44,162 nt of DNA. Origin: Prolixibacteraceae bacterium (GTDB taxonomy: Bacteria; Bacteroidota; Bacteroidia; Bacteroidales; Prolixibacteraceae). This document shows positions 861-28,608 of this stretch, one piece after another (the stretch's first letter is position 1; every line of letters starts with the position of its first letter). Under the pieces are notes generated by a model. It did no database searches. It was given only the letters and a program-made list of their open reading frames with translations, and was not told the DNA's origin. The stretch covers positions 1 to 44,162 of the forward strand of contig JAFGEV010000334.1 in assembly GCA_016931385.1 (NCBI GenBank), written 5' to 3'. A program made the translations under genes and the position numbers.

Positions 861-996
861 ATGAAACGAGCCATGAGTAAACCATACTCATTCAGGGGAA
901 TCGAAGATCGGCGAAGCCAATTATTATCTGGCGAGTTCCCCCGCTCATTAACGGGGCTACCTGTCCCGACAAAAAGACAGGAGGCTATGTGACCAT
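861..996 (+). promoter_or_regulatory. Leader element copy 1 (candidate structured 5' UTR / leader-peptide element) upstream of darA
   Basis: ATGAAACGAGCCATGAGTAAACC...CTGGCGAGTT...GTGACCATT; shared with three other intergenic regions; GCCA(870-873)/TGGC(929-932) pairing; GAC ends 24 nt before ATG at 1018. Confidence 0.6.
938..987 (+). repeat. Nested palindromic repeat inside leader copy 1
   Basis: CGGGGCTACCTGTCCCG matching the copy 2 insert (CGGGACTACCTGTCCCG); additional CCTGTC...GACAGG stem. Confidence 0.6.
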
Positions 997-1017
997 TGAA
1001 AAATAAATTTTAGACTC

Positions 1018-1920
1018 ATGAATATTCTAGTTATATCATACACACAAACGGGCCAATTGGATGAAATTTTGAAATGCATTGTAACGCCTCTTAACACATT
1101 TGACATTGATTACGTTCAGATTAAGCCTAATACTGCCTTCCCATTTCCATGGACATCAGCCACATTTTTTGATGCAATGCCCGAAACGGTCCTTGAAATA
1201 CCAATAGAACTGGCCGATTGTACCTTTAAGCACAGCACTTACGACTTAATTATTTTGGGTTATCAGACCTGGTTTTTATCGCCTTCATTACCCATTTCAT
1301 CCTTGCTTCAATTGGATAAATTCAAGGAAATGGTTAAAAACACACCCGTGATTACTATTATTGGAGCCCGTAACATGTGGATTAATTCTCAAAAGAGCAT
1401 CAATAAACGCATTGCTGAGGCGGGAGGAAAAATGGTTGGCAATATACCATTTATCGACCGCAACAATAATTATGCGAGTGCCGTAACTATTTTATACTGG
1501 ATGCTTACTGGTAAAAAGGATCGGATGTTAAAAATATTTCCGGTTCCAGGAGTTGGACAAAACGATATTGACCAGGCACCTAAATTTGGCGAAATGATTG
1601 AAAAACACATATCAGCCAACTCGTTATATAATTTACAGCACGACATAGTAAAAACCAACCACATTGAAGTTTCAACTAATATCCTTTTTATTGAAAACCG
1701 GGCGAAACGAATATTTATGATATGGGCCAAACTCATCAACAAGTTTAAACCTGGAACTGTGGTGCGTAAAGTTTTTGTAACCCTATTTAAATACTATTTA
1801 CTTATTGCCCTGTTTGTTGTGGCCCCAATTGTTTTAGCAATTTACAACCTGTTGATTTTACCGTTTGTTTATAAATCGGTTGAGCATGAAAAAAATAATA
1901 TCAGATATAATAGTCTGTAG
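1018..1920 (+). CDS. darA: Dialkylresorcinol biosynthesis protein DarA-like (flavodoxin-like N-terminus, C-terminal TM segment)
   Basis: MNILVISYTQTGQLDEIL flavodoxin-like start, ~300 aa, immediately followed by a KAS III (DarB) gene. Confidence 0.8.
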   Translation: MNILVISYTQTGQLDEILKCIVTPLNTFDIDYVQIKPNTAFPFPWTSATFFDAMPETVLEIPIELADCTFKHSTYDLIILGYQTWFLSPSLPISSLLQLDKFKEMVKNTPVITIIGARNMWINSQKSINKRIAEAGGKMVGNIPFIDRNNNYASAVTILYWMLTGKKDRMLKIFPVPGVGQNDIDQAPKFGEMIEKHISANSLYNLQHDIVKTNHIEVSTNILFIENRAKRIFMIWAKLINKFKPGTVVRKVFVTLFKYYLLIALFVVAPIVLAIYNLLILPFVYKSVEHEKNNIRYNSL

Positions 1921-9268: not shown

Positions 9269-9380
9269 ATGAAACGAGCCATAAGTAAACCTTCCTTACA
9301 CAGGAATTTGATTATCTGGCGAGTTCTCCCGATAGATCGGGACTACCTGTCCCGACTGAAAGACGGGAGACTATCTGACG
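9269..9380 (+). promoter_or_regulatory. Leader element copy 2 upstream of ammonia-lyase gene
   Basis: ATGAAACGAGCCATAAGTAAACC...CTGGCGAGTT[palindrome]CTGAC; GCCA(9278-9281)/TGGC(9317-9320); GAC ends 23 nt before ATG at 9403. Confidence 0.6.
9326..9374 (+). repeat. Nested palindromic repeat inside leader copy 2
   Basis: CTCCCG...CGGGAG outer arms (9326-9331/9364-9369) and TCGGGAC-TACCT-GTCCCGA hairpin (9337-9355). Confidence 0.65.
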
Positions 9381-9402
9381 ATATAAAACAAATTATAAAC
9401 AG

Positions 9403-10953
9403 ATGAAACAGATTAACTCATTTAAGGACATATCACTTGACGATTTAGATGCAATCGTTTTACACGGAGAATCAGTAGAAATTAGCGAAGAGAGCGTTAA
9501 ACATGTTGAGGCTTCGCACGATTTTTTATGCAAATTTGCCAAAGAAAAGATAATTTATGGCGTAAACACTGGCTTTGGACCCATGGCTCAATATAAAATT
9601 GACGAAGGCGACCAAATTAGTTTACAATACAATTTGATTAGAAGTCACTGTGCCGGCGCTGGTGATAAACTAGAGGATTTATACGTTAAATCGTCGATGC
9701 TTGTGCGTTTATGTGCCATTTCGAAAGGATACTCCGGTATTCACCCATCAACCATCTTTTTGCTAAAAGAATTAATTAATAAGGAGATTTATCCATTCAT
9801 TCCAAAACACGGAGGTGTTGGCGCCAGTGGCGATTTGGTGCAGCTTTCGCACTTGGCTCTAGCTTTAATTGGCGAGGGGTTGGTTACTTACAAAGGTGAG
9901 TTGCGCAAAACCGAAGAGGTGTTCAAGCAACTTGGCTTAAAACCTATAGAGGTTAAATCAAGAGAAGGTTTGTCGCTGATTAATGGAACATCAGTAATGA
10001 CAGGCATTGGTGCAATTAACATCATCAAATCAAAACAATTGCTGGGATGGTCGGTTTGTGCCTCATCGCTGCTGAATGAACTGGTTGGCGCCTTTGACGA
10101 TTATTTTTCCAAGGAGCTCAATGGCGTTAAAAAACATCGCGGCCAGCAACTTATTGCCGAACGGATGACCGAGATATTAAGCTCTAGTCAGTCGATTTTG
10201 CGTCGTGAAGATTATTTCTACAACCACTCCAAAGACCACGATACAATCGAGTTTAGCAAGAAAGTGCAAGAGTACTATTCGTTGCGTTGCGTTACCCAGA
10301 TTCTTGGCCCCATTTACGATACCATTGAAAATGCGCAGGAAGTTATTGTAAATGAAATCAATTCGGTGAGCGACAATCCAATCATCGACCACGTGAAGGA
10401 AAATGTGTTTCATGGCGGTAATTTCCATGGCGATTACATTTCGTTGGAGATGGATAAGTTGAAGCTGGCCGTCACGAAGATGTCGATGCTGTCGGAGCGG
10501 CAATTGGCGTTTTTGTTTAATCCAAAGATAAATGGTATACTTCCACCGTTTGTTAATTTGGGCCGTTTGGGACTGAACATGGGTATGCAAGGAGTTCAGT
10601 TTACAGCAACTTCCACGGTGGCCGAAAACCAAATGCTGTCCAACTCAATGTACGTGCACAGTATCACCACCAATAACGACAACCAGGACATCGTGAGCAT
10701 GGGAACCAACTCAGCGCTTGCTGCAAAAACAGTGATAGACAACGCCTATCAGGTGCAAGCCATTGAAATGATTGCGCTGCTTCAGGCGGTGGATTATTTA
10801 AAGGTGGCTGATAAACTGTCGGATCATACATTGAACGTTTACAACCAGCTGCGGGCAATTGTTCCGGTATTCATCGAGGACACGCCGAAATATGAAGAGA
10901 TACGCAAGGTTTGCGATTTTCTTTACAATAATGAATTTGAATTCCCAATTTAA
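9403..10953 (+). CDS. Aromatic amino acid ammonia-lyase, probably tyrosine ammonia-lyase
   Basis: MIO-forming ASG in GGVGASGDLVQLSHLAL; close pattern match to remembered Flavobacterium johnsoniae TAL (VIYGVNTGFGPMAQYRI, QYNLIRSH, HGGNFHGDYISLEMDKLK). Confidence 0.9.
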   Translation: MKQINSFKDISLDDLDAIVLHGESVEISEESVKHVEASHDFLCKFAKEKIIYGVNTGFGPMAQYKIDEGDQISLQYNLIRSHCAGAGDKLEDLYVKSSMLVRLCAISKGYSGIHPSTIFLLKELINKEIYPFIPKHGGVGASGDLVQLSHLALALIGEGLVTYKGELRKTEEVFKQLGLKPIEVKSREGLSLINGTSVMTGIGAINIIKSKQLLGWSVCASSLLNELVGAFDDYFSKELNGVKKHRGQQLIAERMTEILSSSQSILRREDYFYNHSKDHDTIEFSKKVQEYYSLRCVTQILGPIYDTIENAQEVIVNEINSVSDNPIIDHVKENVFHGGNFHGDYISLEMDKLKLAVTKMSMLSERQLAFLFNPKINGILPPFVNLGRLGLNMGMQGVQFTATSTVAENQMLSNSMYVHSITTNNDNQDIVSMGTNSALAAKTVIDNAYQVQAIEMIALLQAVDYLKVADKLSDHTLNVYNQLRAIVPVFIEDTPKYEEIRKVCDFLYNNEFEFPI

Positions 10954-18234: not shown

Positions 18235-18428
18235 CACTCTGTTTTTGTAGGAAAATCCTTTGGTTTTAACTTACTAAAGAAACCCTTTCTTGGGTAATAT
18301 TTCCCTCAAAATTTGCAGTGGCAGTTTTATAAATTATTGCAGTTTGCCTAAACCGGTGAATTACGTCAGTACTTATTTGTCTCTTTTTTTGCATATAATA
18401 AAAATAAATAACCAATTTCGCAAGAGTG

Positions 18429-18516
18429 AAACGCGCATGAGCGGAAAACTATCGACAAGAGGATAAATCAAAGATAGGCAGAGCCAATATTATTCCTCAT
18501 GCAAGTTCCACTTGAC
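18429..18516 (+). promoter_or_regulatory. Leader element copy 4 upstream of KS/ACP operon
   Basis: GAAACGCGCATGAG...CTCATGCAAGTTCCACTTGAC; 7-bp perfect GCATGAG(18435-18441)/CTCATGC(18496-18502); GAC ends 25 nt before TTG at 18542. Confidence 0.5.
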
Positions 18517-18541
18517 AAATGACTAAACAAATAATACACAA

Positions 18542-19765
18542 TTGAAAAGAGTTGTTATTTCTGGAATGGGAATTTACTCAACGATAGGCAAGAATGTTGA
18601 GGCGGTTAATAATTCTCTGTATAATGGTATATCGGGCATTGGCATTGATCCAAGACGTAAGGAATATGGGTTTCGTTCTGCCTTAACAGGAATTATTGAA
18701 AGGCCAAACCTTAAAGGATTATTATCGCGCCGCGAGCGCATTGGAATTCCCGAGCAAGGTGAATACGCCTACGTTGCAACCATGGAAGCTCTGGTTAATG
18801 CAAATATTGACCTTGACTTTTTAACCAAAAATGAAGTTGGCATACTCTATGGCAACGACAGTTCAACCATTCCAGTTATTGATGCCATTGATATTGTAAG
18901 AGCAAAAAAAGATACCACACTCATTGGTTCAGGCTCCATATTTCAGTCTATGAACTCAACCATTACCATGAATTTATCGGTAATATTAAAGTTGAGGGGC
19001 ATCAATTTAACCATTAGCGCCGCATGCGCCAGCAGTTCACATGCCATTGGTTTGGCTTATATATTAGTATCTCAAGGATTTCAGGACATCATTATTTGCG
19101 GTGGCGGGCAGGAAATCAATGCCGAGTCCATGGGTAGTTTTGACGGACTAAGTGCTTTTTCAACGCGAGAAGACGATCCAACTAAAGCCTCACGACCATT
19201 CGATAAAGATAGAGATGGACTGGTTCCAAGTGGAGGCGCAGCAACCGTAATTGTTGAAAGTCTGGAATCGGCACTTAAAAGAAGCGCCAATATTTTAGGC
19301 GAAATCAGAGGTTACGGATTCTCATCCAATGGCAATCACATTTCTGTGCCAAATGTAGAAGGCCCCAGAACTTCGCTTGAAAGAGCTCTGAAAAATGCCA
19401 GCTTAACCCCACGCGATATTGATTACATCAACGCACATGCCACATCAACGACTACTGGCGACATAAATGAAGGCAAAGCAATTTTGGATGTTTTTGGCGA
19501 TTGCAACACACCAATCAGTTCAACCAAATCAATGACTGGTCATGAAATGTGGATGGGTGGCACAAGCGAAATTATTTATTCTTTGCTGATGATGAAGAAT
19601 GGATTCATTGCACCAAACATAAACTTCAATGGTGCCGATGACGAATTGGCCCGATTAAACATCATACCAGAAACCAGAGAACAAAACATTGATACCATTT
19701 TATCAAATTCATTTGGTTTTGGTGGCACTAACTCGACTTTAATTGTTACAAGATTCAAAAAATAG
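18542..19765 (+). CDS. Beta-ketoacyl-ACP synthase (FabF-like) 2; TTG start
   Basis: VVISGMGIYSTIGKN N-terminus; SAACASSSHAIG; YINAHATSTTTGD; STKSMTGHEMW. Confidence 0.9.
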   Translation: MKRVVISGMGIYSTIGKNVEAVNNSLYNGISGIGIDPRRKEYGFRSALTGIIERPNLKGLLSRRERIGIPEQGEYAYVATMEALVNANIDLDFLTKNEVGILYGNDSSTIPVIDAIDIVRAKKDTTLIGSGSIFQSMNSTITMNLSVILKLRGINLTISAACASSSHAIGLAYILVSQGFQDIIICGGGQEINAESMGSFDGLSAFSTREDDPTKASRPFDKDRDGLVPSGGAATVIVESLESALKRSANILGEIRGYGFSSNGNHISVPNVEGPRTSLERALKNASLTPRDIDYINAHATSTTTGDINEGKAILDVFGDCNTPISSTKSMTGHEMWMGGTSEIIYSLLMMKNGFIAPNINFNGADDELARLNIIPETREQNIDTILSNSFGFGGTNSTLIVTRFKK

Positions 19766-27885: not shown

Positions 27886-27954
27886 ATGAAACGAACCATT
27901 AGCAAGCTTTTCTCACACAGGGGAATGACTCAGTGGTGAGTTTCATGTGACCAT
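27886..27954 (+). promoter_or_regulatory. Leader element copy 3 (compact form) upstream of lolA
   Basis: ATGAAACGAACCATTAGCAAGC...CAGTGGTGAGTTTCATGTGACC; ACCA(27895-27898)/TGGT(27934-27937); GAC ends 24 nt before ATG at 27976. Confidence 0.6.
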
Positions 27955-27975
27955 TAAAAAACAAATTTAAGACAC

Positions 27976-28608
27976 ATGAAACATATTTTATTCTTACTAT
28001 TTTTATTTACCAGCCTTGCAGCCCATTCGCAAATAGCAGGTTATACCAAAATTACCGACTATTCAATCCTTGAGCAAGAAATCAACAACAACTCCAATAA
28101 AATCAACTCTATAAAAAGTGATTTTATTCAGGAAAAGAAGATTGATTACCTAGATGTTGTCATCGAGAGCAAAGGCAAATTCTGGTACAAAAAGGAGAGT
28201 TACCTAAGGTGGGAATACAATGAGCCATTTAAGTACCTGATTGCCATTGCTAACGGTAAATTTTCAATTCAGGACAATGGCAAAGTGAGCGTTTATGATG
28301 TATCCACCAATGTGGTTTTTAAGGAAATTAACGATTTGATTTTGAGCATTGCAAAAGGCAACATGATTAAAGACAATAAGTTTACAATTGATGCTTATGA
28401 AAACAAAACCTCGTACTTACTAAAACTCACCCCAAAAGATGAGAAAATGCGAAAGTTTATTCAGAACACCGAAGTGTTCATTTCCAAAGCAGATTTATCG
28501 GCAACCAAGGTCATCATGCGCGAATCGGCCACGGATTACACCGTAATATCGTTTGTAAACAAAAAAATGAATGATGAAATTCCTGATACCATTTTTATTA
28601 TTAAGTAG
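27976..28608 (+). CDS. lolA: Outer membrane lipoprotein carrier protein LolA-like
   Basis: Signal peptide; SIKSDFIQEKKIDYLDVVIESKGKFWYKKESYLRWEYNEPFKYLI pattern. Confidence 0.88.
   Translation: MKHILFLLFLFTSLAAHSQIAGYTKITDYSILEQEINNNSNKINSIKSDFIQEKKIDYLDVVIESKGKFWYKKESYLRWEYNEPFKYLIAIANGKFSIQDNGKVSVYDVSTNVVFKEINDLILSIAKGNMIKDNKFTIDAYENKTSYLLKLTPKDEKMRKFIQNTEVFISKADLSATKVIMRESATDYTVISFVNKKMNDEIPDTIFIIK

Follow-up and report, generated by a model that had tools for sequence, protein, structure and literature searches.

The window, that is the whole stretch of 44,162 nucleotides analysed here, carries genes for ketosynthases, ACP, an aromatic ammonia-lyase (PF00221), LolA (PF03548) and acyltransferases; the ketosynthase, ACP, ammonia-lyase and LolA assignments come from Pfam. 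These genes fit a flexirubin-type pigment cluster. A short element stands four times in front of them, always on the coding strand of the next gene, and the 3' boundary of each copy is the start codon of that gene. The element is a hairpin that opens with NTGaA and closes with TTcCAT, followed by a short segment (referred to here as the guide), an A-rich leader and the start codon. All four copies lie where the preliminary description had placed them, can be seen in the sequence, and score 31.4-93.2 bits with R1, a covariance model built from 84 aligned copies, E3 and E4 among them.

861-1020, forward strand: copy E1, before the first cluster gene; R1 31.4 bits (861-959) and 25.8 bits (974-1023)
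861-863, 864-1020 and 1018-1020, forward strand: old start-like ATG, inserted unit and new start codon ATG of E1
939-981, forward strand: nested palindromes of E1 as read from the sequence, CCCCG/CGGGG (939-943/952-956) and CCTGTC/GACAGG (960-965/976-981)
986-991, forward strand: guide TATGTG of E1, pairing imperfectly with CTCATG (1015-1020)
9269-9405, forward strand: copy E2, before the aromatic ammonia-lyase gene; R1 41.3 bits (9269-9361) and 22.2 bits (9371-9405)
9269-9271, 9272-9405 and 9403-9405, forward strand: old ATG, unit and new start ATG of E2, with two nested palindromes at about 9325-9369
9372-9377, forward strand: guide TATCTG of E2, pairing with CAGATG (9400-9405)
18426-18544, forward strand: copy E3, before the ketosynthase/ACP block; R1 48.0 bits
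18426-18428, 18429-18544 and 18542-18544, forward strand: old GTG, unit and start codon TTG of E3
18435-18441 and 18496-18502, forward strand: 7-bp stem GCATGAG/CTCATGC of E3
18509-18514, forward strand: guide CACTTG of E3, pairing at 5 of 6 positions with CAATTG (18539-18544)
27886-27978, forward strand: copy E4, before the lolA-like gene, in the canonical 90-nt form; R1 93.2 bits
27886-27888, 27889-27978 and 27976-27978, forward strand: old ATG, unit and new start ATG of E4
27940-27946, forward strand: GTTTCAT of E4, forming a perfect 7-bp stem with ATGAAAC
27944-27949, forward strand: guide CATGTG of E4, pairing with CACATG (27973-27978)

In a MAFFT alignment of the four copies the invariant parts are TGAAACG, AGTT, TGAC and an A-rich stretch that closes with TGAA. 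From the end of GAC to the start codon there are 24, 23, 25 and 24 nt in E1 to E4, which bears out the fixed spacing of 23-25 nt noticed earlier; the stem GCATGAG/CTCATGC, on the other hand, had been given to the fourth copy and belongs to the third. Three features are absent from the preliminary description: the 3' boundary at the start codon, the pairing of the guide with the right end, and the palindromes nested in E1 and E2. The best unrelated R1 match in the window reaches 15.6 bits, below the main scores of all four copies, and the scores of E1 and E2 are independent because neither was used to build the model. E1 and E3 have an extra apical hairpin in common (GATCGGCGAAGCCAAT / GATAGGCAGAGCCAAT), and E1 and E2 hold two palindromes apiece between GTTC and the guide. 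Nested palindromes of this kind, 16-45 nt long, always sit there or in the apical loop; since exactly one 20-nt palindrome separates the orthologous copies L464 and L469 (in G015 and G001), the palindromes are insertions in their own right.

The element measures about 70-160 nt, and about 90 when intact. Its stem changes from lineage to lineage in a compensating manner (AAACGAGC/GCGAGTT, AAATGCCC/GGGCATT, AAATCGAGCATG/CATGCGAGATT, AAACATCCA/TGGATGTT), with NTGAA, TTCCAT and the guide pairing kept unchanged. An A.C mismatch between NTGaA and TTcCAT is also conserved, with E4 (GTTTCAT) as the exception. The guide forms a second, copy-specific pairing, in which CATnnn matches n'n'n'ATG at the element's own right end. 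An exact guide complement is present in 248 of 282 unselected copies, against a mean of 72.7 and a maximum of 94 in 1000 shuffles. In the 84-copy alignment, which admitted only copies with at least 5 of 6 guide positions matching and whose counts therefore lean towards pairing, 97% of stem cells are paired in the outer hairpin and 98% in the guide stem, and the guide pair at columns 108-142 is CG in 28 copies, GC in 27 and AU in 23, with 4 unpaired. Thus the structured, covarying leader of the preliminary description holds, as does its placing outside any familiar RNA family: Rfam gives no gathering hit in the window, and permissive scans that took in E1, E4 and relatives also leave the element without a hit. 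There is no conserved leader peptide, the frame that opens at the 5' ATG (MKRAM...) stopping at several different places.

How far does the element reach beyond the pigment cluster? At an E-value of 0.01, R1 matches 24 times in this genome, 42 times in its congener and as many as 45 times elsewhere. Of the 23 species of a related genus, 22 carry copies (R1, E 1e-9), and copies also occur in other families, orders and classes of Bacteroidota; an even draw across the phylum matched in 12 of 297 genomes, this one included, some with 13 copies (R1, E 1e-6). A simple pattern places the element in 104 of 140 family genomes, which is an upper bound, as the reversed control of the pattern also matches many of the 140; most of the listed matches show the full consensus. 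Among the named carriers are Breznakibacter, Carboxylicivirga, Natronoflexus, Labilibacter, Labilibaculum and Prolixibacteraceae MAGs. A covariance model with many unrelated matches is the outcome that the preliminary description had itself named as refuting its proposal, and this is the outcome obtained. A second subfamily, with the stem ATGAAATAGCCATGA...TCATGGCTATTCCAT or ATGAAATGAGCATGA...TCATGCGAATTCCAT, lies directly downstream of copies of the first type (L375, L383, L386, L388, L399, L402); R1 is blind to it, so the copy numbers are underestimates. Phage and plasmid records gave no match at the sensitivity used, apart from one IMG/VR contig (L404) with a full copy near the contig end, which is probably bacterial DNA in or beside a prophage. 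We found no published description of the element in the open-access literature.

The clearest view of what these copies are comes from comparing filled and empty sites between two related species, G001 and its close relative G015. At one site (L377) G015 is empty, reading ATGCTGGG directly followed by ATGAAAATTACT, and G001 carries 90 extra nt; at another (L341) G015 is empty exactly at the start codon and G001 is filled. A third site (L466) runs in the reverse direction, with G015 filled and G001 empty. Here the gene of the empty allele opens with TTG AAA. The filled allele keeps TTG at its left end but starts at the insert-borne ATG, from which it follows that the unit is [AAAC...n'n'n'ATG], placed after the start codon. 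More generally, what moves is [AA...hairpin...TTCCATnnn-A-rich leader-n'n'n'ATG], and it is inserted behind NTG. Only these three empty sites are exact to the base; L370 is approximate, and L465/L468 are ambiguous and uncounted. A left end of TTG, GTG or CTG beside a right-end ATG occurs in 10 of 221 copies (the left end of E3 is also GTG), which is explained by insertion after an existing start codon. Comparison of filled and empty sites shows no terminal inverted repeats at the unit ends, and the repeated core TGAA/ATGAA is indistinguishable from a common target core. No target-site duplication of the gene's own 5' sequence was detected either, upstream and downstream flanks being no more alike than shuffled pairs. 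In head-to-tail chains each right end is the left end of the next copy, with ATGAAAC in common. Near-identical copies (L227, L229) precede unrelated genes within one genome; together with the precise empty sites, this gives the element both general marks of mobile DNA. At one orthologous pair, L309 (G012) and L317 (G023), both alleles are filled at the start codon, with guides GTG/CAC and ATG/CAT and differing apical loops; this is either a case of independent insertions at the same codon or of compensatory change.

The genes behind the element have little to do with one another. For 96 of 120 non-tandem copies examined, the right end is the start codon of an ORF at least 50 codons long; about 20% of copies have no following ORF. 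The downstream products are unrelated, the frame beginning with MK or MN throughout the lists, and the genes include ddl, ispD, pyrG, argG, clpX and hisB (Ddl, IspD, CTP synthase, ArgG, ClpX and HisB were named by eye from their N-terminal sequences). In the same DNA, AA follows about 36% of ordinary ATG starts, which makes NTGAA a preference that belongs to the element. Some of the sampled copies had been retrieved with a pattern containing ATGAA, but those retrieved without this requirement also end in NTGAA. The 5' flanks of gene-adjacent copies show an A-rich start context at -13/-11, which is absent at copies away from ORF starts and is what would be expected if the left NTG was formerly a start codon. 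The element's own leader is A-rich too, as would be expected from the initiation regions described for Flavobacterium johnsoniae, in which initiation is favoured by an A at -3, -6, -12 and -13 (PMC6847099).

We therefore consider it likely, from sequence comparisons between species, that the four repeats of the window are four start-codon insertions of a small non-autonomous mobile element of Bacteroidota and not a switch dedicated to the pigment genes. The comparisons show the element sitting directly behind a start codon (NTG^AA), in sense orientation. Its 3' end is an A-rich initiation region of the Bacteroidota type that closes with ATG, so that the host gene keeps its frame and gains a new leader and start. 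On this reading the window copies are four such insertions, or subfamily relatives of them, at four operon starts of the flexirubin-type cluster. Insertion is supported directly; how a DNA guide or an RNA fold would work is what we infer from the conserved features. The conserved single-stranded fold fits two readings, folded DNA for a recombinase or an RNA leader. In the first, a trans-acting recombinase would read the folded single strand, and TTCCATnnn would define both ends, the right n'n'n'ATGAA being able to pair with it and the left NTGAA with its TTCCAT part. A simple one-guide model fails to account for the guide's three additional bases, which fit the right end but have no match in the left flank. 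Once the element is inserted, the guide stem would partly hide the new start codon and may damp translation; as RNA, CAT could also swap to the 5' ATG, so that translation would be damped or switched. Scans of Y1 transposase loci turned up no transposase or recombinase for the element, and patterns for its right and left ends led to no autonomous long form: 20 unmatched ends from three genomes all proved to be complete or decayed short elements.

Which known system could move such a unit? The closest in appearance are the REP/BIME/REPIN sequences with their TnpA-REP (RAYT) transposases and the ends of IS200/IS605, which are likewise short, structured, high-copy and ORF-less and have mismatches in their hairpins. 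By analogy with IS200/IS605 and REP elements, the guide-like complementarity would set the cleavage point. That the element is itself a REP mobilised by a Y1 (TnpA-REP/RAYT) transposase, for instance of the Bacteroidetes subclass 2.6, is nonetheless improbable. The mismatch-bearing hairpin, the complementarity and the copy number all resemble REPs. The conserved foot of the element is NTGAA and not the GT[AG]G of REPs; subclass 2.6 genes in Bacteroidetes are reported to be flanked by atypical structures that also lack GT[AG]G (PMC6006769). However, the guide lies 3' of the hairpin and not 5' of the foot, and the unit inserts at start codons and includes a leader and a translation start. Moreover, no association with Y1 genes was found: when 30 of the Y1 loci in 15 genomes were scanned, no copy lay within about 1.5 kb of any of them (a single 20-bit match has an E-value of 0.16), and a looser guide signature gives 1 hit at these loci against 0.8 expected. 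Two genomes (G082, G146) have good Y1 genes and no element, while one with 45 elements (G131) has only 3 Y1 matches, the best of them with an internal stop.

Slightly less probable still is that the repeats are what the preliminary description took them for, a cis-acting RNA that co-regulates the pigment cluster. It would be a riboswitch, protein-binding leader or thermosensor acting on translation and selected before operons. Such an RNA would alternate between two folds, the long hairpin with CAT paired to the 5' ATG and a hairpin at the start codon with CATnnn paired to n'n'n'ATG. Folding agrees with this. The start region has a predicted unpaired probability of 0.17 when the guide is intact and of 0.50 when it is broken, and about 25% of the predicted ensemble has CAT bound to the 5' ATG; the new start codon is thus predicted to be partly sequestered by the guide stem, with possible effects on translation. 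The covariation is strong, the copies are always sense, and there are more of them in this one cluster than the genome rate would give. The element also shares with the cis-regulatory leaders of Rfam (riboswitches, Bacteroidetes leader motifs) a covarying, structured 5' leader at a start codon, but differs from them in having no Rfam match, in its dispersal over unrelated genes and in being present or absent at orthologous sites. What the copies precede, in several genomes, is dozens of genes without a common function, and about a fifth of them precede no ORF at all. Among 23 congeners, ddl carries the element in 1 of 19 readable leaders, and the empty sites of close relatives show that it arrives by insertion. 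Between the orthologues L210 and L214, the G000 copy has lost a P2 pair (GCCA to GCCT), and the flanks have diverged at a comparable rate. What stands of the earlier proposal is thus a structured, covarying sense leader, and what finds no support is regulation shared by the operons of one pigment cluster; a side effect on the translation of the pigment cluster is possible.

Other comparisons lead less far. BOX, RUP, ERIC and small bacterial MITEs are non-autonomous, dispersed, intergenic and foldable, as is the element, but it has NTG as its left end and ATG as its right, only the core TGAA is repeated, its target is a start codon, and the terminal inverted repeats that are the hallmark of MITEs of DDE transposons are those missing from its unit ends. 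An integron-like, attC-like folded site or other tyrosine-recombinase site, with circular units joining at the core TGAA, is very unlikely: the AAC...GTT hairpin with conserved asymmetric mismatches, the tandem copies with a common core and the direct ATGAA repeats at both ends would suit it, but the arms RTGAAAC/GTTCCAT and the AAT...ATT variants of other lineages do not conform to the attC core RYYYAAC...GTTRRRY, the unit has no ORF and there are no gene cassettes.

If start-codon insertion is the right reading, the element may, as a tentative proposal that we hold with rather less confidence than insertion itself, represent a new class of mobile element that targets start codons by a short guide in its own folded strand, is near-harmless as it re-supplies the initiation region and start codon of the invaded gene, and has spread over much of Bacteroidota. 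An element that brings a replacement initiation region could pile up before essential genes such as ddl, pyrG and ispD and leave them functional. It would rewire 5' leaders in a phylum without Shine-Dalgarno sites, and its copies would offer a natural series of matched leaders in which to see how start-codon pairing tunes translation in Bacteroidota. It would also point to a mobilising enzyme. The case is a warning as well: covarying leaders common to the operons of one cluster need not regulate that cluster.

Why would four copies stand in a single cluster? Against the 0.19 copies expected in 44 kb from the other 20 of the genome, four is an excess (Poisson P ~5e-5) in a window that was chosen for them. 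This is more clustering than random insertion gives, and possible reasons are that tuned expression of the cluster was selected for, or that the element prefers to insert in DNA newly acquired. Full-length relatives of the ammonia-lyase (9403-10953) occur in 3 of the 140 family genomes, this one included (E 1e-100), so the pigment cluster may have been acquired horizontally or widely lost; the two other ammonia-lyase loci have no element. The leaders of ddl orthologues, for their part, hold two other dispersed palindromic repeats, GTCCGAAA...TTTCGGACGAAATGGTGAGATTCACC and CATAGGCACATAG...CTATGTGnCTATGTGGTT, found upstream of ddl at L158, L159, L167 and L168 and at L154, L162, L163 and L171.
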